Below are positions 9,655 to 28,210 of a DNA stretch of 36,156 bases, in pieces. The notes beneath the pieces are model-generated. The model was not told where the DNA came from, did not search any database, and saw only the letters and a program-made list of their open reading frames with translations. Position 1 is the stretch's first letter. Every line of letters starts with the position of its first letter. Origin of the DNA: Acidobacteriota bacterium (lineage in GTDB: Bacteria; Acidobacteriota; JAAYUB01); the NCBI GenBank assembly GCA_016935015.1, contig JAFGRT010000197.1:1-36156 (forward strand). The letters are read 5' to 3'. A program made the translations under genes and the position numbers.

Positions 9655-12543
9655 ATGGGTTTTTTGGGCCGATTATTCAAAAAACCGGACAAGGATGAAA
9701 CGTCCATCTCGCCGGATCGACTAAAGAAGGATGCCGCCAAACCAGATATTGTTTCTGCGGCGGAGGTCCCGGAAGATGAAGAGGTATACCTCGGCGACAC
9801 GGATGCGACGGGCGCGTTGGATCAGGCGGCCGGTGATGGTCCCTCCGGTAATAATTCCGCGGCAGGTTCGGATCTGAAGCAGGAAGACCTGGTTGCCGGT
9901 CCTGTTCCGGAGACGGATGGCAGAAAGATCCAGGAAGATGACGTTGCCTCGAGTGCGCCTGAAATGGGTCGGTTGCGGGCCTCGGTCCAGGAACTCCGAG
10001 AATTGAGCCAACAGGCACTGGAGGCGAAGGGACGCATTCAGGAGATCGAGCATCTTCTGGGTGAAAAGGAAGCCGCCATCCTGGGCGAACTGCACCATAC
10101 CCGCACCATTCTGGGTAGCATCTTCGAAGTGATCAGCGGTCGGGATCAAGAAAAAACCCTGGATGAGATCAATGATTTGCTGGCGTCGGAAATCGGGTTT
10201 GTCGAATCGGATCAGGAAGCCGACGTGGCCGATATGCATGGGCTGCTGAAACTGGTGGGCGAAAAATCGACCGATGCCCTTGCCGAAATCCGTACATTCA
10301 TCGAGGAAGGGGAAAGCAAACTTGTCCACGTGCGGACCTTGCGCGAACAGCAGGAGGCCGCTCTGACCGCCCTGAACCGCAAGCTGGCCGAAGCGGCGCA
10401 ACTGCGTGAGGAGGCGGAGGAGATACTGGCACAGCTGGGGAGCCGTAAATCGTCTTTGGAGCGGGAAGTGGATGCCACGATCGCCGCCCGGCAGAATGTG
10501 ATGGCCCAGATTTCCCTGGTCGAGGAAAAGATCGAAAAGATCCAGACGGAAAAGGCGGAACTGGAAAGCCAGATCCAGATGCTGGAAGGGGAGAATCAGG
10601 AACTGCGCTCGCGCTGTGACTCCATCCGGGAAGAGATCGCCGAGAAGGAGCTGGTGACGGAGGAGCTTCAAAAAGCCCTGCAAACCGTCCAGGGTGACCG
10701 GAATGAGGCGGAACAGCAGCTCAAGAGCCTGATGAAGGAAAAGGAAAATGTCACGGCGGATATCCGGCTGGGCGAGCGGGCGCTGGAAGATCATCAGGAG
10801 ATGACGGAGCGCCTGAACACCATGATCCGGGAGACGGAACAGGATCTGGCGGCGCTCAAGGAAGAATATGAAGAGGTTCAGACGTCGCGGGAGCATCTGG
10901 CCATCGAGAAACAGGCACGCGAAGAGGCCCAGGTGGAGAACCAGGGGCAGCTGGAGGAATTGCAGGAAAAGCTCAGCCAGCTGGTCAATGAAAAAACCGA
11001 ATGGGAAGAACGTCTGCAAACGGGACGGGATGAGTTGGCGGCGCTGCAGGAAAAGGTGCCGGCATCGGACGCTGCGGCGCAAGGCGGCGAGGAAGTCACC
11101 ATGCTTCGCGAGGAAATCGAGTTTATTTCCGGAGAGGTCGCTTCGTTGCAGCAGCAAGTGGAAGAGTCGCAGCGGGAGAAGTCCAGACTGGAAGAGGCGC
11201 GGACAGGGCTTCAGTCCGATGCAGAGATCGCGTCGGCGGAGGAGTTGCAGCGGAAACTGCAGGAGCTGCTGGAGGAGCGGAGCGGCTGGGAAGAGAAGCT
11301 GGAGCAGGAATCGGCCGGCCTGCAGGAATTGCGCGTTCAACTGGATACGCAGAGACAGAGTGTGGCGGACATGGGGGAGGAACGGGCCGCCGTGCAGGAG
11401 GAAATCAATCAGACTCGCGAGGAGCTGGCCGGCCTCCGAATCCGGTATGAAGAGCTGAAGGATGAAGTCGTCCGGGTATCGGCCGAACTGGAAGGCGAGC
11501 CAGCGGCGGCGGCGGAGTTCATGGAAGCGTTGCGCGAGGAAGTCCAGCAACTGCAAATGGAACAGTCCGAATGGTCCGAGAAAGTGCAGCATGAAAAGGC
11601 CGCCTTGGAAGAGGCCCAGGCCAATTTGCATCTCCAGCTGGAAGGCCAGGAGGAGATGAGCGAAGAGCGGCGCAACTTGCAGCAGCAGCTGAAGCAGGCC
11701 AAGGAAGCCATTGGCAATCAGCAGAAGCAGTACGAGGAATTGAAAAATCGTAAGGAAACGCTGGAGCAGGAGCTGGATCGTGTCCGGTCGGCCACCGAGG
11801 AGGGCGCCGGACTGGAAGTCCTGCAGCTGGAATTGACTGAGTTACAGGCGCAGCGGGAAACGTGGAAGGCGGATCTGGAACGATTGGAAGCGGAACTGAA
11901 GCAAAGCGAGGTGCTGACCGAGGAAAACAGCCGCAAGATGGAGGAGCAGGTCCGCGCCCGGCAGGAGCTGGATGAGCACATCAAGCAACTGGAAAGGGAT
12001 ATCGCTGACTACCGGACGAAAATTGACGATACACGCCAGGCCCTGGATGTGGCCGCCGAAGACCGGGAACGGGCGCGAAAATTGTACGAGGAGGAGAAGA
12101 AGGTTTCGGAGGCCCGTCAGGATCGGATGGAGGAACTGGAAGAGGAAAAATCCGTTCTAGAGGAGGAGTTCGGCAAACTGTCCGACAGCGACCGACCGGC
12201 GGCCGTCCGGGACGTTTCCCCTGCCTTGACCAGCCAGGATACGGTCTACGATGTAGAGCAAGCAACGGAACTCCCGCCGCTCATCGTTGAGGACGAAAAT
12301 GAAGTGCCCCTCTCTCATCGGGAGGCCCGGCGACTGGCCCGGGTCAGTGTTTCGGATATCATTCTCTACAACAAGGAATTATTGAGAACGGCCGCCAATC
12401 AGCGCAATTTCCATCAACTGTTGGAAAAACATATCCGCCAGGCGGAAAGGTATTACCGGGAACGCGTACCCGCCGAAGTCACCAGGGAACGGGACTATCT
12501 GCGGGAGGAGATCGAGAAGCTGCGTCTGAGTCTTAAACCCTAG
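9655..12543 (+). CDS. Very long coiled-coil protein with conserved non-coiled C-terminal domain
   Basis: The 962-aa protein starts with a short amphipathic-looking segment (MGFLGRLFKK), then an acidic, Ala/Asp/Gly-rich linker to about residue 100. About 740 residues of almost uninterrupted heptad-rich Glu/Gln/Leu/Arg/Lys sequence follow, typical of a long dimeric coiled coil. It is Cys- and Pro-poor, with occasional breaks. After a second linker near residue 850, the final 75 residues change character: a basic helix EARRLARVSVSDIILYNKEL, then a helical part ending RYYRERVP and a short coil. From memory, the ARRLAR..VSDI.LYN pattern recurs at the C-termini of otherwise unrelated Acidobacteriota and delta-proteobacterial proteins. 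No ATPase (SMC) head is present, so this is more like a scaffold or cytoskeletal/polar protein. The stop is 8 bases before the next start, whose ribosome binding site overlaps this gene's end. Confidence 0.85.
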   Translation: MGFLGRLFKKPDKDETSISPDRLKKDAAKPDIVSAAEVPEDEEVYLGDTDATGALDQAAGDGPSGNNSAAGSDLKQEDLVAGPVPETDGRKIQEDDVASSAPEMGRLRASVQELRELSQQALEAKGRIQEIEHLLGEKEAAILGELHHTRTILGSIFEVISGRDQEKTLDEINDLLASEIGFVESDQEADVADMHGLLKLVGEKSTDALAEIRTFIEEGESKLVHVRTLREQQEAALTALNRKLAEAAQLREEAEEILAQLGSRKSSLEREVDATIAARQNVMAQISLVEEKIEKIQTEKAELESQIQMLEGENQELRSRCDSIREEIAEKELVTEELQKALQTVQGDRNEAEQQLKSLMKEKENVTADIRLGERALEDHQEMTERLNTMIRETEQDLAALKEEYEEVQTSREHLAIEKQAREEAQVENQGQLEELQEKLSQLVNEKTEWEERLQTGRDELAALQEKVPASDAAAQGGEEVTMLREEIEFISGEVASLQQQVEESQREKSRLEEARTGLQSDAEIASAEELQRKLQELLEERSGWEEKLEQESAGLQELRVQLDTQRQSVADMGEERAAVQEEINQTREELAGLRIRYEELKDEVVRVSAELEGEPAAAAEFMEALREEVQQLQMEQSEWSEKVQHEKAALEEAQANLHLQLEGQEEMSEERRNLQQQLKQAKEAIGNQQKQYEELKNRKETLEQELDRVRSATEEGAGLEVLQLELTELQAQRETWKADLERLEAELKQSEVLTEENSRKMEEQVRARQELDEHIKQLERDIADYRTKIDDTRQALDVAAEDRERARKLYEEEKKVSEARQDRMEELEEEKSVLEEEFGKLSDSDRPAAVRDVSPALTSQDTVYDVEQATELPPLIVEDENEVPLSHREARRLARVSVSDIILYNKELLRTAANQRNFHQLLEKHIRQAERYYRERVPAEVTRERDYLREEIEKLRLSLKP

Positions 12544-18473: not shown

Positions 18474-19136
18474 TTACGATTCCTGCAGGCGATGGCGGAC
18501 GATGTCTCCCTCAATCATGTAGATGGTGTCTTCGGCAATATTGGTGGCATGGTCGGCGATCCGCTCCAGGTTGTTGGCGATAAGCAGGTAATGGAGCATC
18601 TGCTTTAGGATACCGGCCGAGTCGCGGTCGGTTCGCTGCACCCGGTTGAGGATCTGGCGATGCAGGGCATCCACCTCATCATCATCAGCGCAGATCTGGG
18701 CGGCGAGTCCCTCATCCAGATCGATCAGGCAATCCAGGCTTTTGCGCACCATCTCCTGGACCTTGCCGGCCATGGTCAGCAGCTCCGGCGGGGGATCCAC
18801 ATGGGGGATGCGGGAAAGGGCGATGGTCTCTTCGGCGATGTTAACGGTCAGATCGCCGATTCTCTCCAGGTCATTGTTTATCTTGAGTGAGGCGATGATA
18901 TATCGCAGATCCACGGCCACCGGCTGATACAACGCCAGCAGTTTCAGGCAATCCTCCTCCACTTCCACTTCCATTTCGTCGATGATGGGATCGGCGGTGA
19001 TGACACTTTTGGCCAGTTCATCATTATGGGAATCAATGCATTTGACGGCACCCTGGAAGCTTTCCTCCACCAGCGCGCTCAACGACAGAATTTTTTTCTT
19101 CAAGCTTTCGATTTCCCGATACATGTGGATGGGCAT
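18474..19136 (-). CDS. phoU: Phosphate transport regulator PhoU
   Basis: PhoU couples the Pst transporter to the PhoR sensor kinase and represses the Pho response when phosphate is plentiful. The 220-aa product has two PhoU three-helix repeats: the first with AVDLRYIIASLKINNDLERIGDLTVNIAE and the second with LHYLLIANNLERIADHATNIAEDTIY. Both carry the E/DxxxD metal-binding pattern. The start MPIHMYREIE is chosen because AAGGAG lies 6 bases upstream; the longer frame begins with a TTG inside that site. It is divergent from pstSCAB, whereas phoU most often follows pstB. It has its own upstream Pho-box-like repeats. Confidence 0.95.
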   Translation of the reverse strand: MPIHMYREIESLKKKILSLSALVEESFQGAVKCIDSHNDELAKSVITADPIIDEMEVEVEEDCLKLLALYQPVAVDLRYIIASLKINNDLERIGDLTVNIAEETIALSRIPHVDPPPELLTMAGKVQEMVRKSLDCLIDLDEGLAAQICADDDEVDALHRQILNRVQRTDRDSAGILKQMLHYLLIANNLERIADHATNIAEDTIYMIEGDIVRHRLQES

Positions 19137-19340: not shown

Positions 19341-19383
19341 CTTGTACAGTTGATTTGTTAGAGCGGTATGAAATTGGTGTTAG
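19341..19383 (-). promoter_or_regulatory. Pho-box-like repeat array and -10 for phoU
   Basis: On the minus strand: CTAACA (19383-19378), five bases, TTCATA (19372-19367), five bases, CTAACA (19361-19356), then nine bases and TACAAG (19346-19341) as a -10-like hexamer. The 11-bp period fits tandem PhoP/PhoB-type response-regulator binding with the last repeat replacing a -35 element. The leader would be about 200 bases. Confidence 0.6.
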
Positions 19384-19510
19384 ATATGGATCATTTGCCT
19401 GAAATTACCCTGGTAAAAAGCCTGTGCGGAAGGACACATGTGCCCGAAAATCCTGAGATTCAAAAGGATTTCCCGCGGGAGTCGACCGCAGCCACGCCGA
19501 TCCTTGAAAA

Positions 19511-19564
19511 ATAACAAAGCGCTAACATTACCTTTATTACCGACTAACAGTCCATCCGCATAAT
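19511..19564 (+). promoter_or_regulatory. Pho-box-like repeat array and -10 for pstSCAB
   Basis: ATAACA (19511), CTAACA (19522), TTTATT (19533) and CTAACA (19544) start exactly 11 bases apart. Nine bases after the last repeat lies CATAAT (19559-19564), a near-consensus -10. The pstS ATG follows at 19601 behind AGGAGGAG. This resembles TTAACA-type PhoP boxes with 6+5 spacing. The 449-base phoU-pstS gap holds no gene. Confidence 0.68.
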
Positions 19565-19600: not shown

Positions 19601-20425
19601 ATGCGATTCTTTTTGACTTGTGTGTTGACCGCTCTGACCCTGATGAGCATGTCGGTGGTTATGGCCGCCGACAAAATCGTCCTCGACGGCTCTACCACCG
19701 TCGGTCCCATCGCCAAGGCTTTTGCCGAAGCCTACATGAAAGAGAACCCTGATGTGAACATTTCCGTCAGTGAGTCGGGCAGCGGCAACGGCGCCAAGAG
19801 CCTGATCAACGGTGCCTGCCACATCGCCGACATGTCCCGTTTCATGAAGGACAAGGAGTTCGCCGCCGCCGTGGAAAAGGGCATCATGCCCGTGGCCCAT
19901 TGCGTGGCTCTGGACGGCATCGCCATGATCGTTCACCCCAGCAACCCGGTGAAAGCCATCACCATGGCTCAAATCAAGGACATCTACACCGGCAAGATCA
20001 CCAACTGGAAAGATCTGGGCGGCCCCGATGTCAAGATCGTCATGATCAGCCGTGACACCAACAGCGGCACCTATGAGACTTTCGAAGGCCTGGTCATGAA
20101 AAAGGAAAAGATCGTGGAAGGCTGCGAGTACGTCGGCAGCAATGGCGCGGTGCGCGGCCGCGTGCAGAGCACCCCGGCGGGCATCGGCTATGTGGGCATC
20201 GGCTTCCTGGACAAGTCCGTCAAGGCCTTGACGGTCGGTGGCGTGTACCCGACGAAAAAATCCATCTCATCTGGCAAGTATCCCATTGCCCGTCCCCTGT
20301 TCATGTTCACCAACGGCTACCCGAAAATGGGTACGCACCTGTTCACCTTTGTGAACTATTATCTGAGTCCAAAAGGACAGGAAATCGTGGAAGCCATCGG
20401 TTTCGTGCCGATTACCGAGTATTAG
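19601..20425 (+). CDS. pstS: Phosphate ABC transporter substrate-binding protein PstS
   Basis: This is the periplasmic phosphate receptor of the high-affinity Pst transporter. A signal peptide (MRFFLTCVLTALTLMSMS with likely cleavage after VMA) precedes the mature start ADKIVLDGSTTVGP. Phosphate-contacting segments are recognisable: GSTTVGP, SESGSGNG and SRDTNSGTYETF. The ITMAQIKDIYTGKITNWKDLGG block is typical of the family, and 274 aa is the compact bacterial form. The start has a strong AGGAGGAG site. It is first in pstSCAB, controlled by a Pho-box-like array, and followed by a 13-bp hairpin that may hold its expression above that of the membrane genes. Confidence 0.96.
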   Translation: MRFFLTCVLTALTLMSMSVVMAADKIVLDGSTTVGPIAKAFAEAYMKENPDVNISVSESGSGNGAKSLINGACHIADMSRFMKDKEFAAAVEKGIMPVAHCVALDGIAMIVHPSNPVKAITMAQIKDIYTGKITNWKDLGGPDVKIVMISRDTNSGTYETFEGLVMKKEKIVEGCEYVGSNGAVRGRVQSTPAGIGYVGIGFLDKSVKALTVGGVYPTKKSISSGKYPIARPLFMFTNGYPKMGTHLFTFVNYYLSPKGQEIVEAIGFVPITEY

Positions 20426-20439
20426 TCCGGATATCTGAA

Positions 20440-20477
20440 AATGTACCGGCCGGGGCGCATGCTTCGGCCGGTACATT
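20440..20477 (+). terminator. Intercistronic pstS-pstC hairpin (attenuating or mRNA-stabilising)
   Basis: A perfect 13-bp inverted repeat, AATGTACCGGCCG (20440-20452) with CGGCCGGTACATT (20465-20477), closes a 12-base loop. Only a weak T stretch follows, so it is more likely a partial terminator or 3'-end protector of pstS mRNA, as is common behind substrate-binding-protein genes. Confidence 0.6.
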
Positions 20478-20515
20478 CTTCAGCCACATTCCTTGATGGA
20501 AACGGAAAGGTTGCT

Positions 20516-21691
20516 GTGAGCCAAACAACATTGAATGCGGGTCCGACGCCCGGCCGATCGGCCAAAAGAAGCATATACATCAGCGAGGGGACCAGTCGCT
20601 GGCGGCGGTTTGTGTCATTTTCCATTGAAGGATTCCTCTTCCTGGTCACATCTTTGTCACTGATTGCCGTCTTCTTTATCATTCTGTTCATTGCCATCGA
20701 CGCCATTCCCTTTTTTCAATTGGAAGGCTTCACGGAATTTTTCACCAGCATCCGCTGGTACCCGTCGGGTTCTCCGCCGGAGTTCGGTGCGCTGGCCATT
20801 ATTTTCGGCAGCGGGATGGTCACTTTCCTTGCCGCTATGATTGCCGTCCCCCTGGCGCTGCTGTCGGCGGTCAGTCTGAGTGATATCCTGCCCTTCTCCG
20901 TCCGGCAGTTCGCCAAGCCGGTCATCGAGATCATCGCCGCCATCCCGTCCGTCGCCTACGGCTTTTTCGCCCTGGTGGTCTTTGCGCCCATTCTGCAGAC
21001 CAGCGGCGGTCATCTCCTGGGCATCCTGGTCTGGCTGTTCGGTGCGCCACTGGCGCTGATCGTTTCCTTCGTCGTGGGCGATATGCTGGCCGACCGCATC
21101 TTCGGGGATAATGTCACCCAGGTCCAACGGACCGCCATCCTGCTGTTGCTGATGGGAATCTTCAGCGTGGGGCTGTACTTTCTTTATGCGCCCATCAGCG
21201 CCATCAAGATCTCCAGCGGCACCAACGCTCTGAACGTGTCCATCATTCTGGGGATCATGGCCCTGCCCACCATCGTCAGTGTGTCGGAAGACGCCCTGCA
21301 GGCCGTGGGCCGTGAGCTGCGCGAGGGAAGTTACGCCCTGGGCGCCACCCGCGCCGAGACTATCACCAAGGTGGTCATCCCGGCGGCCCGCTCGGGGATC
21401 ATTGCCGCCATCATCCTGGGCATCATGCGGGCCATCGGCGAAACCATGGTGGTCTGGATGGCCTCGGGGAATGCATCACAGATCCCCTCGCCCTGGTACA
21501 ATGTGCTGGAACCGGTGCGCACATTGACGGCCACCATCGCCGGTGATATGGGCGAAGCCGATCATGTAACCGGTTCGTCGCGCTATCACGTCCTGTTTGC
21601 CATGGCCTTGTTCCTGCTGCTGATCTCCTTTTTCAGCAACCTCATCAGCGAATGGGCCGTCATGCGCTCGAAGAAAAAATGGGGAGTCTAG
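20516..21691 (+). CDS. pstC: Phosphate ABC transporter permease PstC
   Basis: This is an inner-membrane permease subunit of the Pst system. A GTG start is chosen because GGAAAGG lies 5 bases upstream and the longer frame would start inside the intercistronic hairpin. The 391-aa product has an N-terminal cytosolic tail, a first membrane helix (FLFLVTSLSLIAVFFIILFI), the AAIPSVAYGFFALVVF helix, and the coupling motif EGSYALGATRAETITKVVIPAA. The family usually has about 300-320 residues. The excess is an insertion after VVFAPILQTSGG carrying two extra hydrophobic stretches and a short loop (DRIFGDNVTQVQ) before the normal NVSIILGIMALPTI segment. It lies three bases upstream of pstA. Confidence 0.93.
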   Translation: MSQTTLNAGPTPGRSAKRSIYISEGTSRWRRFVSFSIEGFLFLVTSLSLIAVFFIILFIAIDAIPFFQLEGFTEFFTSIRWYPSGSPPEFGALAIIFGSGMVTFLAAMIAVPLALLSAVSLSDILPFSVRQFAKPVIEIIAAIPSVAYGFFALVVFAPILQTSGGHLLGILVWLFGAPLALIVSFVVGDMLADRIFGDNVTQVQRTAILLLLMGIFSVGLYFLYAPISAIKISSGTNALNVSIILGIMALPTIVSVSEDALQAVGRELREGSYALGATRAETITKVVIPAARSGIIAAIILGIMRAIGETMVVWMASGNASQIPSPWYNVLEPVRTLTATIAGDMGEADHVTGSSRYHVLFAMALFLLLISFFSNLISEWAVMRSKKKWGV

Positions 21692-21694
21692 GCC

Positions 21695-23041
21695 ATGAAA
21701 GCACACACCCGCAAAATACTGGACAAATCCTTCACCGGCATGGGCTTCATGTCGGTCATCCTGTTGACTCTCTCGCTGGTGATCGTGCTGGGGCCCATTT
21801 TCGTGCGCGGGATCCAGGCTTTTCTGTTCTTCGATACGGTGGAGTATCGACGAATGCAGCTGGATCTGTTTGACCGGGGCGATCCGGAGGAAGTGAAGGC
21901 AGAACTGGACGAGGTCTGGGCTGAGCGCCGTTTCATTTATGACACTATCGCCGCTTTCGAGGAACAGGTCGAAAATGAAGAGATTGAAAACAGTTGGGAA
22001 TATCCGGAGAAAATCGACAGCCTGAACGACAGTCTGAAAGCGCTGTTCGGTCCCCGGCCGGACGAGCCCGAACCGGTGTTGCCGCGCGACCGCTACGGCG
22101 AGACCCGCTGGGACCGGGCCCAGCAGACATTCAAGCTGGTGATGTATAAGGAGCAGTGGGATTATTCCGATCCCTCCGCCATGGGCTCAAAGGTGCTGGT
22201 GCCGCGGATCGACTCCTTTCGCGGCACGACCGTGGAGCAGATCTTCCCCTACATGGAGGAAAATCTGGAGAAACTCATGCTGCCTGAATTTACGTTCTAC
22301 TGGCAGTTTCTGACGGACAAATCCCATGACATTCATTTCTTCGGCGGGATCGGCGCTGAGGTTCTGGGGACCTTCTACCTGGTGATTGGGACCATGCTCT
22401 TCGCCATCCCCATCGGTGTCATCGCCGCCATCTATCTGGCGGAATTTGCCAAGGAAGGCAAGATCGTGAGCCTGTTGCGGACCGCCATCAGCACCCTGGC
22501 CGGTGTGCCCAGCATCGTGTTCGGGCTGTTCGGCCTGGCCTTCTTCATCAACACCATGGAAGTATCTCAGTCGAAAAGTGTTCTGGCCGGCTCACTGACC
22601 CTTACCCTGTTGGTGCTGCCGACCATTATCCGGGCGGCGGAGGAGGCCATTCTGGCCGTGCCCAAGGCTTACAAGGAGGCTTCCCTCAGCCTGGGGGCCA
22701 GCAAGCTCTACACCATTCTGAAGGTGATTCTACCGGCGGCCATGCCGGGCATTCTGACGGGGATCGTCATCAGTATGGGCCGGGCGGCCGGTGAGACCGC
22801 GCCCATCATCTTCACTGCCGCCGTCAGTGTCGGTCAGCCGCTGGGGCTGTTTGAAACCTTGAATCAGCCGACGATGGCCTTGCCCTGGAACATCTATAAC
22901 CTGGTGACGGAGCATGAAGCGGTGGACCAGATCCGGCATGTGCAGTTCGGCATGGTGTTTACGCTGGTCCTGCTGGTCGTGGTCCTGAACTTTGCCGCCA
23001 TCGTTCTGCGGGCCAGAATATCGAAGAAATTGAGAGGATAA
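21695..23041 (+). CDS. pstA: Phosphate ABC transporter permease PstA with large periplasmic insertion
   Basis: This is the second Pst permease subunit. TM1 is at about 18-45. The typical permease core begins near residue 200 with FYWQFLTDKS, HFFGGIGAEVLGTFYL and AGVPSIVFGLFGLAFF, with the coupling loop EASLSLGASKLYTILKVILPAA and a last TM near 425-440. Between TM1 and the core is an unusual hydrophilic, acidic, helix-prone insertion (about 48-197) rich in Glu, Asp and Arg. It should lie in the periplasm. Normal PstA has about 280-300 residues, this one 448. The insertion could contact PstS or another envelope partner. The frame is continuous with no sign of a frameshift. Confidence 0.93.
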   Translation: MKAHTRKILDKSFTGMGFMSVILLTLSLVIVLGPIFVRGIQAFLFFDTVEYRRMQLDLFDRGDPEEVKAELDEVWAERRFIYDTIAAFEEQVENEEIENSWEYPEKIDSLNDSLKALFGPRPDEPEPVLPRDRYGETRWDRAQQTFKLVMYKEQWDYSDPSAMGSKVLVPRIDSFRGTTVEQIFPYMEENLEKLMLPEFTFYWQFLTDKSHDIHFFGGIGAEVLGTFYLVIGTMLFAIPIGVIAAIYLAEFAKEGKIVSLLRTAISTLAGVPSIVFGLFGLAFFINTMEVSQSKSVLAGSLTLTLLVLPTIIRAAEEAILAVPKAYKEASLSLGASKLYTILKVILPAAMPGILTGIVISMGRAAGETAPIIFTAAVSVGQPLGLFETLNQPTMALPWNIYNLVTEHEAVDQIRHVQFGMVFTLVLLVVVLNFAAIVLRARISKKLRG

Positions 23042-23050
23042 TGCGGTAAA

Positions 23051-23899
23051 ATGAGTCAAACAGATGCCAAAAACGTGCGGGTAAGTAAAATGCAACTATC
23101 CAAGGACTCCATCCACCAGAAAAAGATCCTGAATCCGGAGACGGAAAAAGGTCACGTCATCTCGGAAGATTTTTCAGTTTTTTATGGGAACACCGAAGCC
23201 ATCGTCAAGGCCAACCTGTCCATGCCCGCGAAAAAGGTCACGGCCATCATCGGACCCAGCGGGTGCGGCAAGAGTACCGTTCTGCGGGCCATCAATCGGA
23301 TGAATGACCTGATCCCGGGCTGTTATGCCAAGGGCAAACTGATATTCGACGACGAAGATATTTACAGCCAATACACCGATGTGGTGCTGCTGCGGAAGCG
23401 GATCGGCATGGTGTTTCAGAAACCCAATCCCTTCCCCAAGTCCATCTTCGATAACATCGCCTTCGGGCCCCGGCTCTGCGGTATTAGAAGGAAGAGCGAT
23501 CTGCAGGAGGTCTTCGAAAAGAGTTGTCGGCAAGCCGCCCTGTGGGATGAAGTCAAGGATCGCCTGGAGGATAACGCCCTGGGGCTCTCCGGCGGTCAGC
23601 AACAGCGTCTCTGCCTGGCCCGTGCGCTGGCCGTGGATCCGGAAATACTTCTGATGGACGAACCGACGTCGGCCCTGGACCCCCGGGCCACGTCGAAGAT
23701 TGAGGACCTGATCCGCGAATTGCGTGGCACCTACACCATTATCATTGTCACCCACAACATGCAGCAAGCAGCCCGCGTGTCGGATTACACGGCGTTTTTC
23801 TACGAAGGCGTCCTGATCGAGTTCGCCCCTACCTCGGAACTGTTTACCAATCCCCGGGAAAAGAAAACCGAAGAATACATCACGGGCCGGTTCGGGTAG
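23051..23899 (+). CDS. pstB: Phosphate ABC transporter ATPase PstB
   Basis: This ATPase drives phosphate import with PstCA. The 282-aa product has Walker [10 protein letters not shown], the PstB-typical [10 protein letters not shown], the Q-loop [20 protein letters not shown], the signature [16 protein letters not shown], Walker [14 protein letters not shown], and the H-loop [19 protein letters not shown]. About 35 residues precede the usual start of the domain. An internal ATG (MQLSKD, 23090) is a possible alternative start, since neither has a strong ribosome binding site. A terminator-like hairpin follows downstream, closing the operon. Confidence 0.96.
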
Positions 23900-24148: not shown

Positions 24149-24481
24149 ATGGTGAGCATTCACAGCAAACACCTGGCCGCACGGGCGGAGATCCTCAAGG
24201 CGCTGGCCCATCCAACCCGTCTGTTTCTGGTGGATGAACTGGCCCGGGGCGAACGGTGCGTCTGTGAATTGACGGAACTTGTGGGCGCCGATATCTCCAC
24301 CGTGTCGCGGCACCTCAAGCTGCTGCGTCAGTCGCACATCCTGGTCGCCGAGAAACGGGGGGCGCAGATCTGGTACTCCCTCCGCATGCCGTGTGTGCTC
24401 ACGTTTTTTCAGTGTATCGACCACATCATGACCAGTTCGGCGCGCCAACAGGCGGACCTGATCGAGGAACAGATCGACTAG
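24149..24481 (+). CDS. arsR: ArsR/SmtB-family metalloid-responsive repressor
   Basis: The 110-aa winged-helix protein shows the ArsR core: ILKALAHPTRLFLVDELARGERCVCEL, recognition helix ADISTVSRHLKLLRQSHIL and wing EKRGAQIWYSL. The C37-V-C39 pair in the CVCEL motif is the classical alpha-3 As(III)/Sb(III) sensor site. Further cysteines (C82, C89) near the C-terminus could complete it. It would repress its own operon until metalloid binds. The start has GGGAGAG 4-5 bases upstream. It is first in a cluster with a permease and thioredoxin-like/ArsF/ArsG-like proteins, which supports an arsenic role. The ligand could also be another thiophilic metal. Confidence 0.88.
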   Translation: MVSIHSKHLAARAEILKALAHPTRLFLVDELARGERCVCELTELVGADISTVSRHLKLLRQSHILVAEKRGAQIWYSLRMPCVLTFFQCIDHIMTSSARQQADLIEEQID

Positions 24482-24549
24482 TGGGGACAGCGATTCCCGG
24501 TAAGCCCCCCAGCAGGGCTGGCCGTCGACAACTCGAGGAGCAGGATCGA

Positions 24550-25854
24550 ATGATGGATTGGAAAAAGGAATGGAAACCGCTGCTGGGCATGGCTCTGGTT
24601 TTTACCGGATTCTATTATTTACCCCTGGACTGGTCCCGTCTGGAACATGCCGTCATGGAGGCCCTGTACCTGACCCGGTGGTATGCCCGGGAGCATGTGC
24701 TGCTGTGCCTGGTGCCGGCGTTCTTCATCGCCGGCGCCATCGCCGTATTTGTCAGCCAGGCCGCAGTGATGAAGTATCTCGGCGCCCGGGCCAAAAAGGT
24801 GGTGGCCTATGGCGTCGCCTCCGTCTCGGGTTCCATCCTGGCGGTCTGCTCCTGCACGGTGCTGCCGCTCTTCGCCGGCATCTACCGCATGGGCGCCGGC
24901 CTCGGGCCGGCCACCGCCTTCCTCTACTCGGGACCGGCCATCAATGTGCTGGCCATCATCCTCACAGCCCGCATCCTTGGGGTGGAGCTGGGCGTGGCCC
25001 GGGCCGTGGGGGCAGTATTGTTCAGTATCATCATCGGCCTGCTGATGCACCTGATTTTTCGGAAGGAGGAGCTGGCCAAGGCCCGGGCCCAGGCCGCCCT
25101 CCCCGAATCGGAGACGGCGCGCCCCCTGTGGCAGAACATGATATACTTCGGCGCCATGGTGGGCATCCTGGTTTTTGCCAACTGGGGCAAACCGGAGGCA
25201 GCGGTGGGGGTCTGGCACGCCGTCTGGTCGTCCAAATGGATCATCACCGCCTGTTTCGGCGCCGCCTTGGCCGTGATCCTCGTGCGCTGGTTTAATCTGC
25301 GCTGGTGGCCCATCCTGCTGACCGCCGCGGCGACGGCGCTGGTTGCATTGTGGCGTCCCGGGCAGCCGGAGCTGCCTTTCGTAGTGGCCGTCATCGGCCT
25401 GTCGGTCATTACCGGACGCGATGAGGGGGAAGCCGGTGAATGGCTGAGCGCCACCTGGGGCTTTACCAGGCAGATCCTGCCGCTGCTCTTCTTCGGGGTG
25501 CTGGTGGCCGGCGCGCTGCTGGGTCGGCCGGGGGAGGAGGGGCTGATTCCGTCGGCATGGATCAGCGGCGCCGTGGGCGGCAACTCCATCGGCGCGAACC
25601 TCTTCGCCTCGGTGGCCGGCGCCTTCATGTACTTCGCCACCCTGACGGAGGTTCCCATCCTGCAAGGCCTCATCGGCAACGGCATGGGCAACGGGCCGGC
25701 CCTTGCCCTGCTGCTGGCCGGGCCGGCATTGAGCCTGCCCAACATGCTGGTCATCCGCAGCATCATGGGCACCCGCAAGACCGTGGTTTTCGTGGCGCTG
25801 GTGGTGGTGATGGCCACCATCAGCGGCTTGATATTCGGAGAAATTTTTCCCTGA
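24550..25854 (+). CDS. UPF0718/ArsP-type membrane permease
   Basis: The 434-aa polytopic protein is of the DUF318/UPF0718 family, which includes ArsP, the trivalent organoarsenical exporter. The signature block VCSCTVLPLFAGIYRMGAGLG (C100, C102) and GPAINVLAIILTARILG in the first half has a counterpart in the second half (SGAVGGNSIGANLFASVAGA, MGNGPALALLLAGPALSLPNM). About ten hydrophobic helices are visible, with a hydrophilic loop near residues 175-195. The start at the first of two adjacent ATGs has GAGGAG 9 bases upstream; the ORF upstream overlaps arsR and is not credible. It is followed 10 bases later by a mini-thioredoxin gene, a pairing common for this family. Arsenic export is inferred from context. 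Confidence 0.85.
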   Translation: MMDWKKEWKPLLGMALVFTGFYYLPLDWSRLEHAVMEALYLTRWYAREHVLLCLVPAFFIAGAIAVFVSQAAVMKYLGARAKKVVAYGVASVSGSILAVCSCTVLPLFAGIYRMGAGLGPATAFLYSGPAINVLAIILTARILGVELGVARAVGAVLFSIIIGLLMHLIFRKEELAKARAQAALPESETARPLWQNMIYFGAMVGILVFANWGKPEAAVGVWHAVWSSKWIITACFGAALAVILVRWFNLRWWPILLTAAATALVALWRPGQPELPFVVAVIGLSVITGRDEGEAGEWLSATWGFTRQILPLLFFGVLVAGALLGRPGEEGLIPSAWISGAVGGNSIGANLFASVAGAFMYFATLTEVPILQGLIGNGMGNGPALALLLAGPALSLPNMLVIRSIMGTRKTVVFVALVVVMATISGLIFGEIFP

Positions 25855-25864
25855 GGAGCAAGGA

Positions 25865-26122
25865 ATGAAGAAGATACAGATTCTGGGCACCGGCTGCCCC
25901 AAATGCGCCAAGCTGGCCGACACGGCCGACGCCGCCGCCCGCGAACTGGGCATCGAGTACGAACTGGTCAAGGTGACAGACATCAACGACATCCTGGGTT
26001 TCGGCGTCATGATGACGCCGGCCCTGGCTGTGGACGGGGAGGTGAAAAGCGTGGGGCGGGTGCCCGGCAGCGAGGAGATGAAGGACGTTCTGCGTCAGGC
26101 GTCGTCGCCGGATACTCAGTGA
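25865..26122 (+). CDS. Small thioredoxin-like redox-disulfide protein (CPKC)
   Basis: The 85-aa protein is of the thioredoxin_3 / MTH895 type: strand MKKIQILGTG, active-site C11-P-K-C14, helix KLADTADAAARELG, then the cis-proline segment MMTPALAVDGEVKSVGRVP. No signal peptide, so it is cytosolic. Such proteins commonly accompany UPF0718 permeases. In arsEFG-type clusters a small redox partner (ArsE-like) is thought to help nitro- or arsenate-group reduction. Assigning it as ArsE is inference only. It has a good AGGAG-type site (GAGGAGCAAGGA) directly before the ATG. Confidence 0.88.
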   Translation: MKKIQILGTGCPKCAKLADTADAAARELGIEYELVKVTDINDILGFGVMMTPALAVDGEVKSVGRVPGSEEMKDVLRQASSPDTQ

Positions 26123-26170
26123 CATCGTCCTTCGAAAACGAGCCAAATGATCATTCATGGGAAGGCAATC

Positions 26171-26623
26171 ATGAGCAAATGGATGGTGGTATGTGGATTG
26201 CTGATTATCGGGGCCGGCATTCTGACCGGAACACATGGCCCGGCCAAGGGCCAGGACGGAAAGGATGCCATGAGATCGTCGTCAGGCAATGAAACCGTTG
26301 TGTACTATTTTTTTACAATCCAGCGCTGTCCCTCCTGCACCAAGATCGAGAAATACACCCGTGAGGTGCTGGAGTCCGTATTCGCCCAGGAATTAAAAGA
26401 CGGAATCATCGTCTGGAAAATGGTTAATGTGGACGAACCGGGCAACGCTCATTACATGGAAGATTTCCAGCTCTTTACCAAGTCGGTGGTTCTGGTGGAG
26501 ACATCCGGTGACAGCGTGGCGCGCTGGAAAAACCTGCCCAAGATATGGCAGCTTCTCAACGATCAGTCGGAATTTACCCGGTACATTACCGACGAGGTGA
26601 CGGCCTTTTTGGGAGGGGAATGA
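26171..26623 (+). CDS. arsF: ArsF-like exported thioredoxin-fold protein
   Basis: The 150-aa protein (start MSKWMVV, chosen for GGAAGG 5 bases upstream rather than an ATG 24 bases earlier) has an N-terminal hydrophobic anchor or signal (WMVVCGLLIIGAGILTG). A thioredoxin-like domain follows, with VVYYFFTIQRCPSCTKIEKY (C53, C56), then VNVDEPGNAHYMEDFQLFTKSVVLVE. This combination matches, from memory, the nitrophenyl-compound nitroreductase subunit ArsF family of Shewanella-type arsEFG operons. The domain faces the periplasm if the anchor is not cleaved. The next gene, arsG-like, starts within its stop codon (ATGA overlap). Confidence 0.75.
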   Translation: MSKWMVVCGLLIIGAGILTGTHGPAKGQDGKDAMRSSSGNETVVYYFFTIQRCPSCTKIEKYTREVLESVFAQELKDGIIVWKMVNVDEPGNAHYMEDFQLFTKSVVLVETSGDSVARWKNLPKIWQLLNDQSEFTRYITDEVTAFLGGE

Positions 26624-27312
26624 TGGAAGGGTTCGTTCTGGGTGTCGGGAGCGCCATCTGGCTGGGGATTCTGACGTCCATCAGTCCCTGTCCGCTGGCG
26701 ACCAACCTCGCAGCCGTGTCCTTCATCGGCAAGCAGATGGGGCGACCCGCCCGTGTGGTATCGGCCGGTTTGCTGTATATTCTGGGGCGGGTCATCGCCT
26801 ACACCGTCCTGGGAGCGTCTCTCATTGCCGGCATCCTGTCCATACCCGGCGTAGCCCGGTTTTTACAGAATTCCATGAATCAGCTGCTGGGCCCCGTGCT
26901 CGTCGTCGCCGGGCTGTTCCTGCTGGGTCTCTTCAAGCTCCCCTCAGGAAGGGGGAACTTCACTGCGGCCGCGCAGAAACGGCTGGAAAATCACGGTTTG
27001 CTGGGCGCGCTGCTGCTGGGATGCCTGTTCGCGCTCTCCTTTTGTCCCATCTCGGCTGGCCTGTTCTTCGGCAGCCTGCTGCCGCTGGCGGCCACGCACC
27101 AGTCGAGCCTCCTTTTCCCTTCCCTTTACGGAATCGGGACAGGCCTGCCCGTGCTCGGCTTCGCCGTACTGGTTGGATTCGGGGCCCACTGGATCGGCAA
27201 GGCGTTTCAAAAGGTGACGGTGTTCGAATTCTGGGCGCGCCGCATCACCGGTGGCATCTTCGTACTGGTGGGAATCTATTACTGCCTGAATTACCAGTTG
27301 AAGATCTGGTAA
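26620..27312 (+). CDS. arsG: ArsG-like / CcdA-family membrane transporter
   Basis: The 230-aa protein belongs to the cytochrome c biogenesis (DsbD transmembrane)-like superfamily with six hydrophobic helices. The paired motifs SISPCPLATN and ALSFCPISAG carry the cysteines that relay electrons or bind thiophilic substrate in CcdA/DsbD. The sequence resembles the aromatic aminobenzylarsenical efflux permease ArsG family. It may either export reduced organoarsenicals or pass electrons to the adjacent ArsF-like protein. The start ATG overlaps the arsF stop by four bases with GGGAGGGG upstream. A 403-base gene-free stretch follows. Confidence 0.78.
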   Translation: MMEGFVLGVGSAIWLGILTSISPCPLATNLAAVSFIGKQMGRPARVVSAGLLYILGRVIAYTVLGASLIAGILSIPGVARFLQNSMNQLLGPVLVVAGLFLLGLFKLPSGRGNFTAAAQKRLENHGLLGALLLGCLFALSFCPISAGLFFGSLLPLAATHQSSLLFPSLYGIGTGLPVLGFAVLVGFGAHWIGKAFQKVTVFEFWARRITGGIFVLVGIYYCLNYQLKIW

Positions 27313-27715
27313 TCCGTTTGTCCGGGCAGGCCGGCTGCGGCTGTCGGACCGGGGCGCAGAAGCCGTGAGAGGTCGTATTCTGAAGGCAGCATCGAAGAGA
27401 CAGCTGCGCCGGTGGGGTGGCATCCTGACGGTGGAAAGGACGCTCGTCACCTTCGACTGATGAGGCCCCGGCAGCAGGGATCGCTCGGTCGAGCGGCGCG
27501 TCCGTAGCAACCGGTGGACTGTTTTCGGGTGGCGGTCGAGCCGGACCTGGAAATCTACCAGGCCACCGGGACCTGACGGCGTGTCCCTCGGGAAGGGGGC
27601 CGGATGCTGCATATCTCCGCCCACGACGGTGGCACAATCTCCCCGGAAATCCTGCTGTCCTGAAGGCGGTAGCGGTACCCTCGACCGGTGATTTCGGTCA
27701 TGGTGAGGAGGCTGC
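27313..27715 (+). other. 403-base gene-free stretch inside the metalloid cluster
   Basis: No credible gene is found in either strand; the minus-strand ORFs here are compositional shadows without recognisable domains. Several short hairpins occur: CTCGTCA/TGATGAG near 27451, CGCTCG/CGAGCG near 27482, CCTGG/CCAGG near 27545, and GACCG/CGGTC just before the next gene. No match to a known riboswitch or RNA family was recognised. It may be a decayed gene or an RNA leader. Confidence 0.4.
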
Positions 27716-28210
27716 ATGGCGGTGGACATACAGCAGATTCGGATCGGAAGCGTTCGGGTCGGCGTTGTCGGCCTGGCAGAAGAATGCGCGCGCCTGGCCG
27801 GGGAGGCCGGCAATCTGTCGGATTCCGAAATGCGGGATCTGCTACTGGCGCGAATGGCGGGCCGCAATTACATCCCGGCGGGCATGCAGGCGGAATATGC
27901 CGCCGCTTTCTGGTGGGAATACCGGAAATATCGTGGTGAAGCGGTTCCGGATGAAGGCGGAAGCGGGCTGGTAATCGAAGTGCTGGGCCCCGGGTGCCCG
28001 CGCTGCGAGCAGCTGCTGGAGGAGGTCCGGTATCTGCTGGTCCGCGAGGGAATTGGAGCCGGAGTGGAACATGTCACCGACCTGCAGGCAATCGCCGCCT
28101 TCGGTCCCCTGGCGACGCCGGCGCTGGTGATCGATGGCCGGGTGAAGTCCACCGGCCGCATCCCGCCCCCCGGCCAGATCCTGAAATGGCTGCGGGTGAC
28201 AGATGATTGA
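27716..28210 (+). CDS. Thioredoxin-like (CPRC) protein with unknown N-terminal domain
   Basis: The 164-aa protein has two parts. Residues 85-160 are a second MTH895-type thioredoxin domain: VIEVLGPGCPRCEQL (C94, C97), helix, and ATPALVIDGRVKSTGRIP. Residues 5-72 are an unrecognised domain with IGSVRVGVVGL, a helical part, and RNYIPAGMQAEYAAAFWWEYRKY. The NYIP...EY..A...EYRK pattern looks like a conserved small domain I have the impression of seeing in anaerobe genomes, but I cannot name it. The GAGGAG site is 6 bases before the ATG. It is probably co-transcribed with the ArsR cluster despite the gap, since its thioredoxin part is a clear relative of the 85-aa one upstream. It ends 29 bases from the convergent anti-sigma gene. 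Confidence 0.75.
   Translation: MAVDIQQIRIGSVRVGVVGLAEECARLAGEAGNLSDSEMRDLLLARMAGRNYIPAGMQAEYAAAFWWEYRKYRGEAVPDEGGSGLVIEVLGPGCPRCEQLLEEVRYLLVREGIGAGVEHVTDLQAIAAFGPLATPALVIDGRVKSTGRIPPPGQILKWLRVTDD

Follow-up and report, generated by a model that had tools for sequence, protein, structure and literature searches.

A 0.46-kb gap that separates phosphate-uptake genes and carries two arrays of short direct repeats raises the question of what drives transcription in its two directions. The window analyzed here, 36,156 nucleotides in full, is one contig (C231) of the 4.75-Mb draft genome of an Acidobacteriota bacterium. The gap is flanked by phoU on the minus strand and by pstS-pstC-pstA-pstB on the plus strand, all five genes being assigned by curated models above cut-off (Table 1). 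We conclude that the region very probably comprises two divergent phosphate-starvation (Pho) promoters, one for pstSCAB and one for phoU. Pho control is an established system, and divergent Pho promoters at pstS-phoU are expected in kind; the modest novelty lies in a conserved 9-base geometry and its distribution over phyla.

Table 1. Genes and predicted promoter features of the phoU-pst region (window positions)
Feature	Position	Strand	Basis
phoU	18474..19136	-	TIGR02135, 191.7 bits vs cut-off 130.25
-10-like hexamer TACAAG, proposed phoU promoter	19341..19346	-	9 bases past last half-site
Pho-box array, three half-sites, 11-bp steps	19356..19383	-	predicted from sequence
Pho-box array, four half-sites, 11-bp steps	19511..19549	+	predicted from sequence
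-10 hexamer CATAAT, predicted pstS promoter	19559..19564	+	9-base gap conserved in relatives
pstS, phosphate-binding protein	19601..20425	+	TIGR02136
pstC	20441..21691	+	TIGR02138
pstA	21695..23041	+	TIGR00974
pstB	23051..23899	+	TIGR00972

Geometry of the two arrays

The plus-strand array is composed of half-sites starting at 19511 (ATAACA), 19522 (CTAACA), 19533 (TTTATT) and 19544 (CTAACA), the last of which is separated from CATAAT by GTCCATCCG (9 bases). The minus-strand array consists of CTAACA (19383-19378), TTCATA (19372-19367) and CTAACA (19361-19356), with a possible weak fourth unit, ATGATC, at 19389-19394; its last CTAACA is followed by AATCAACTG (9 bases) and then by TACAAG. The preliminary description had placed repeats with 11- and 22-base offsets on both strands, each array ending nine bases before a -10-like hexamer; all coordinates proved right, and the spacing is exact in both arrays. 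With four plus-strand and three minus-strand units, both exceed the minimum of two direct repeats at an 11-bp period that defines a Pho box. In both, the array stands where a -35 element would be expected, at a fixed distance of 9 bases from the -10, and this distance forms a sharp peak in relatives. A -35/-10 scan of the intergenic region found no sigma-70 promoter pair, and an ordinary sigma-70 promoter was set aside on this ground.

The hexamers are short, and two units, TTTATT on the plus strand and TTCATA on the minus strand, match the half-site weakly, as might be expected if an AT-rich intergenic stretch resembled such an array by chance. Against this, when the whole layout is scored with a position-weight model trained on 47 sequences that include the plus array, the two arrays reach 28.0 and 26.3 and 30 Markov shuffles of the window at most 10.0. 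Recurrence at the same genes genome-wide and across phyla, described below, already contradicts chance, which we regard as an extremely improbable explanation. TTTATT or TTTATA also occupies the position of the weak pstS unit in the Aminicenantes loci L001, L004 and L066.

An alternative allocation would leave the plus array alone as a promoter, the minus array serving as an extra regulator site that aids pstS activation or autoregulation, and phoU being transcribed from a promoter of its own farther downstream. The most likely phoU start is ATG 19136, with AAGGAG ahead of it. On the minus strand, its leader contains a terminator-like hairpin (19318-19303), below which lies TGGTATAAT with TATAAT at 19268-19263, a possible second phoU promoter. 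This TG-N-TATAAT element is nearer to phoU than TACAAG, a poor -10 hexamer, and the hairpin lies between the two. The minus array, however, keeps the exact 11-bp steps and 9-base gap of a promoter-like geometry; an array is positioned directly 5' of phoU in two genomes of the same family (G002 and G003); and TACAAG occupies the equivalent place in the pstS promoter of a relative (L049). We consider the alternative allocation rather unlikely and retain divergent promoters, with the phoU branch less certain than the pstS branch because of its weak TACAAG and the terminator-like hairpin in the leader.

Recurrence in the host genome and across phyla

The pattern CTAACA-N16-CTAACA occurs without mismatch at three sites genome-wide: the two window arrays and C115:28683. 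A fuller pattern of three units, nine bases and a -10, searched over the whole 4.75-Mb genome, likewise has three perfect matches, located at the window pstS promoter, upstream of a Ppx/GppA exopolyphosphatase gene (contig C115) and upstream of an outer-membrane Porin_5 gene (contig C29). Allowing one mismatch yielded eight matches, the phoU array among them, compared with one in a reversed control. The one-mismatch sites on C96, C134, C176 and C195 were discarded as probable chance matches, since inspection revealed no clear phosphate gene. A cross-phylum sequence model, whose 21 input arrays all came from other phyla and none from the host, ranked the pstS array first in the genome (E 0.003), the phoU array second (0.085) and the ppx array third (0.14). 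The C29 porin site, which has a weak upstream unit, is absent from this model's genome list; a C139 site on that list was rejected as probable chance, again for want of a clear phosphate gene on inspection. As befits a Pho box, several sites of one genome thus lie at phosphate-acquisition genes (pstSCAB, phoU, Ppx/GppA and the porin). In a second, distant PstS homologue of the host (G000:C22:27279-27827), a Pho array is absent from the stretch examined.

The preliminary description had tied its reading to recurrence of the motif near other phosphate genes. Such recurrence was found in the host, at Ppx/GppA and at a porin whose homologues adjoin pstS elsewhere, and also in relatives. Many of their loci run in the order array, porin homologous to the C29 porin, second array and pstS. 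The C29 gene itself (1589-2887; locus L073, G000:C29:359-3386) has a Pho array upstream; with homologues that adjoin pstS across many phyla, it points to a family of phosphate-starvation porins. Arrays are also present 5' of phoB in L012, L015, L024, L032 and L213; those of L213 are divergent, with a Na/Pi-cotransporter gene on one side and phoB-phoR on the other. Divergent Pho-like arrays at 11664 (-) and 11820 (+) of L212 (G065:C78) separate a Sel1-repeat protein gene from that of a 613-aa protein without a Pfam match; further arrays on the same contig lie before a DUF3450 / MotA-ExbB gene pair and at a PhoB-like gene.

Conservation upstream of pstS was analyzed in PstS relatives drawn from two sources, named genomes and same-phylum genomes. 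Using fixed consensus weights and three-unit arrays at periods of 7-16 in 91 pstS upstreams, scores >14 were obtained in 38 of the 91 at period 11 and in 0-2 at any other period. Of 35 arrays, 19 have a NANANT -10 at a distance of 9 bases, with 0-4 at other distances, and in 42 of 92 upstreams the score lies above a level that shuffles pass 0.07 times on average per set. At a threshold passed by 0.6% of shuffled sequences, arrays with the 9-base -10 extend to Aminicenantes, Krumholzibacteriota, Planctomycetota or Phycisphaerae, Sumerlaeota, Riflebacteria, Treponema and Peptostreptococcaceae, the group labels being those in record titles. The layout upstream of pstS is common to many poorly studied phyla. 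Three same-family genomes (G001-G003) carry the array TTAACA/TTAATG/CTAACA, and 52 of 60 sampled same-phylum genomes, the more distant ones, gave no model match.

The pst region itself may have a separate history. PstS shares up to 74% identity with proteins of many other phyla and ~38% with the best same-family ones, the best matches of QueG on the same contig are in same-family genomes, and the GC content of the pst region is lower (56% vs 60%). Together, these sequence features suggest that the pst operon (19601-23899) may have been acquired horizontally. Directly 3' of the operon lies an arsenic-type cluster (24149-28210) composed of genes for an ArsR-like regulator, an ArsP-type permease, an ArsG family transporter and an ArsE-like thioredoxin. 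Phosphate transporters are an entry route of arsenate into cells.

Candidate regulator and proposed mechanism

The best PhoB-family match genome-wide (C73:10611-11279) adjoins the best PhoR-family match (C73:12038-13054), providing a candidate two-component pair of the PhoB-PhoR type. Both are the best in the genome and score below the curated cut-offs, which are proteobacterial (250 vs 296 bits for PhoB and 314 vs 334 bits for PhoR), which leaves a small probability for the genome's other OmpR-family regulators. An array was looked for upstream of the host's own phoB-phoR locus and not found. The DNA-binding helix region reads VDVQVVSLRRK in the C73 candidate and VDVHIRRLRKA in E. coli PhoB, a change that may underlie the preference for TAACA over TGTCA.

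Several further OmpR-family regulators are encoded in the genome, and sites in this family often consist of tandem direct repeats, so a non-Pho member could bind the arrays. This is very unlikely given that phosphate genes accompany the strong host sites and the majority of annotated sites in relatives, among them phoB itself in several relatives. The Pho-box reading put forward in the preliminary description is supported by gene context, with the arrays exactly between phoU and pstSCAB, by recurrence in the genome, by the cross-phylum layout, including motifs at pstS, phoU, phoB, porin and Na/Pi-cotransporter genes of relatives, and by the PhoB-PhoR pair.

Under this Pho reading, phosphate limitation would lead the sensor kinase to phosphorylate a PhoB/PhoP-type response regulator, whose molecules would bind the 11-bp half-sites head-to-tail, one per helical turn and all on one face. 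The bound regulators would substitute for the absent -35 element and recruit RNA polymerase to the -10 hexamer set 9 bases downstream. The plus array would thereby drive pstSCAB, encoding a high-affinity phosphate transporter, and the minus array phoU, encoding a damper of that phosphate signalling pathway. Regulator binding, activation, the direction of regulation and the phosphate response are all predicted here from sequence.

Comparison with known Pho boxes

The arrays resemble the E. coli PhoB box of pstS and phoA in their 11-bp period, the lack of a -35 element, a -10 at a fixed short distance and shared target genes. They differ in the core, which is TAACA here and TGTCA (CTGTCAT repeats) in E. 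coli. Read directly, the E. coli pstS and phoA sequences have CTGTCA-type units with 11 bases from hexamer to -10, compared with 9 here, two fewer if TAACA is aligned with TGTCA; the published distance of 10 bases counts a longer unit (PMC1906773). The window arrays are accordingly not E. coli-type PhoB boxes, for which a CTGTCAT half-site and a -10 ten bases past the 7-mer are expected.

This difference raises the question of why the -10 gap departs from the E. coli model. Tentatively, and with more doubt than confidence, we suggest that many deep, mostly uncultured phyla share a class of TTAAC-type Pho promoters whose -10 gap is fixed at 9 bases, with a corresponding PhoB subgroup in which the recognition helix is altered (VDVQxVxLR). 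If so, a different regulator-sigma geometry would be the prevalent one, E. coli being the exceptional case, and pst clusters could pass from one phylum to another along with their promoters, since all would use the same code. The compact, transferable rule of at least three C/T-TAACA units repeating every 11 bp, followed by 9 bases and TANANT, gives predictions of Pho regulons for many uncultured phyla.

The B. subtilis PhoP box, TT(A/C/T)A(C/T)A at an 11-bp period, is nearly identical in half-site and period, the likeness being one of consensus. The Desulfovibrio vulgaris PhoB box, (c/t)GT(n)AC with 6 bp + 4 bp (PMC3333781), shares tandem direct repeats at phosphate transporter genes but has a different core and, as reported, a 10-bp unit. 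The cyanobacterial SphR Pho box consists of CTTAACCT repeats of 8 bp with a 3-bp linker (PMC1906773), sharing with the window arrays an 11-bp period, at least three tandem units, a TTAAC core and a position 5' of pst operons and of further phosphate genes. It belongs to other organisms, the window unit reads C/T-TAACA, and the comparison covers the repeats. The half-site had been described beforehand as TTAACA-type rather than the E. coli CTGTCAT, and this assignment holds: it is of the TTAAC type, as in cyanobacteria.
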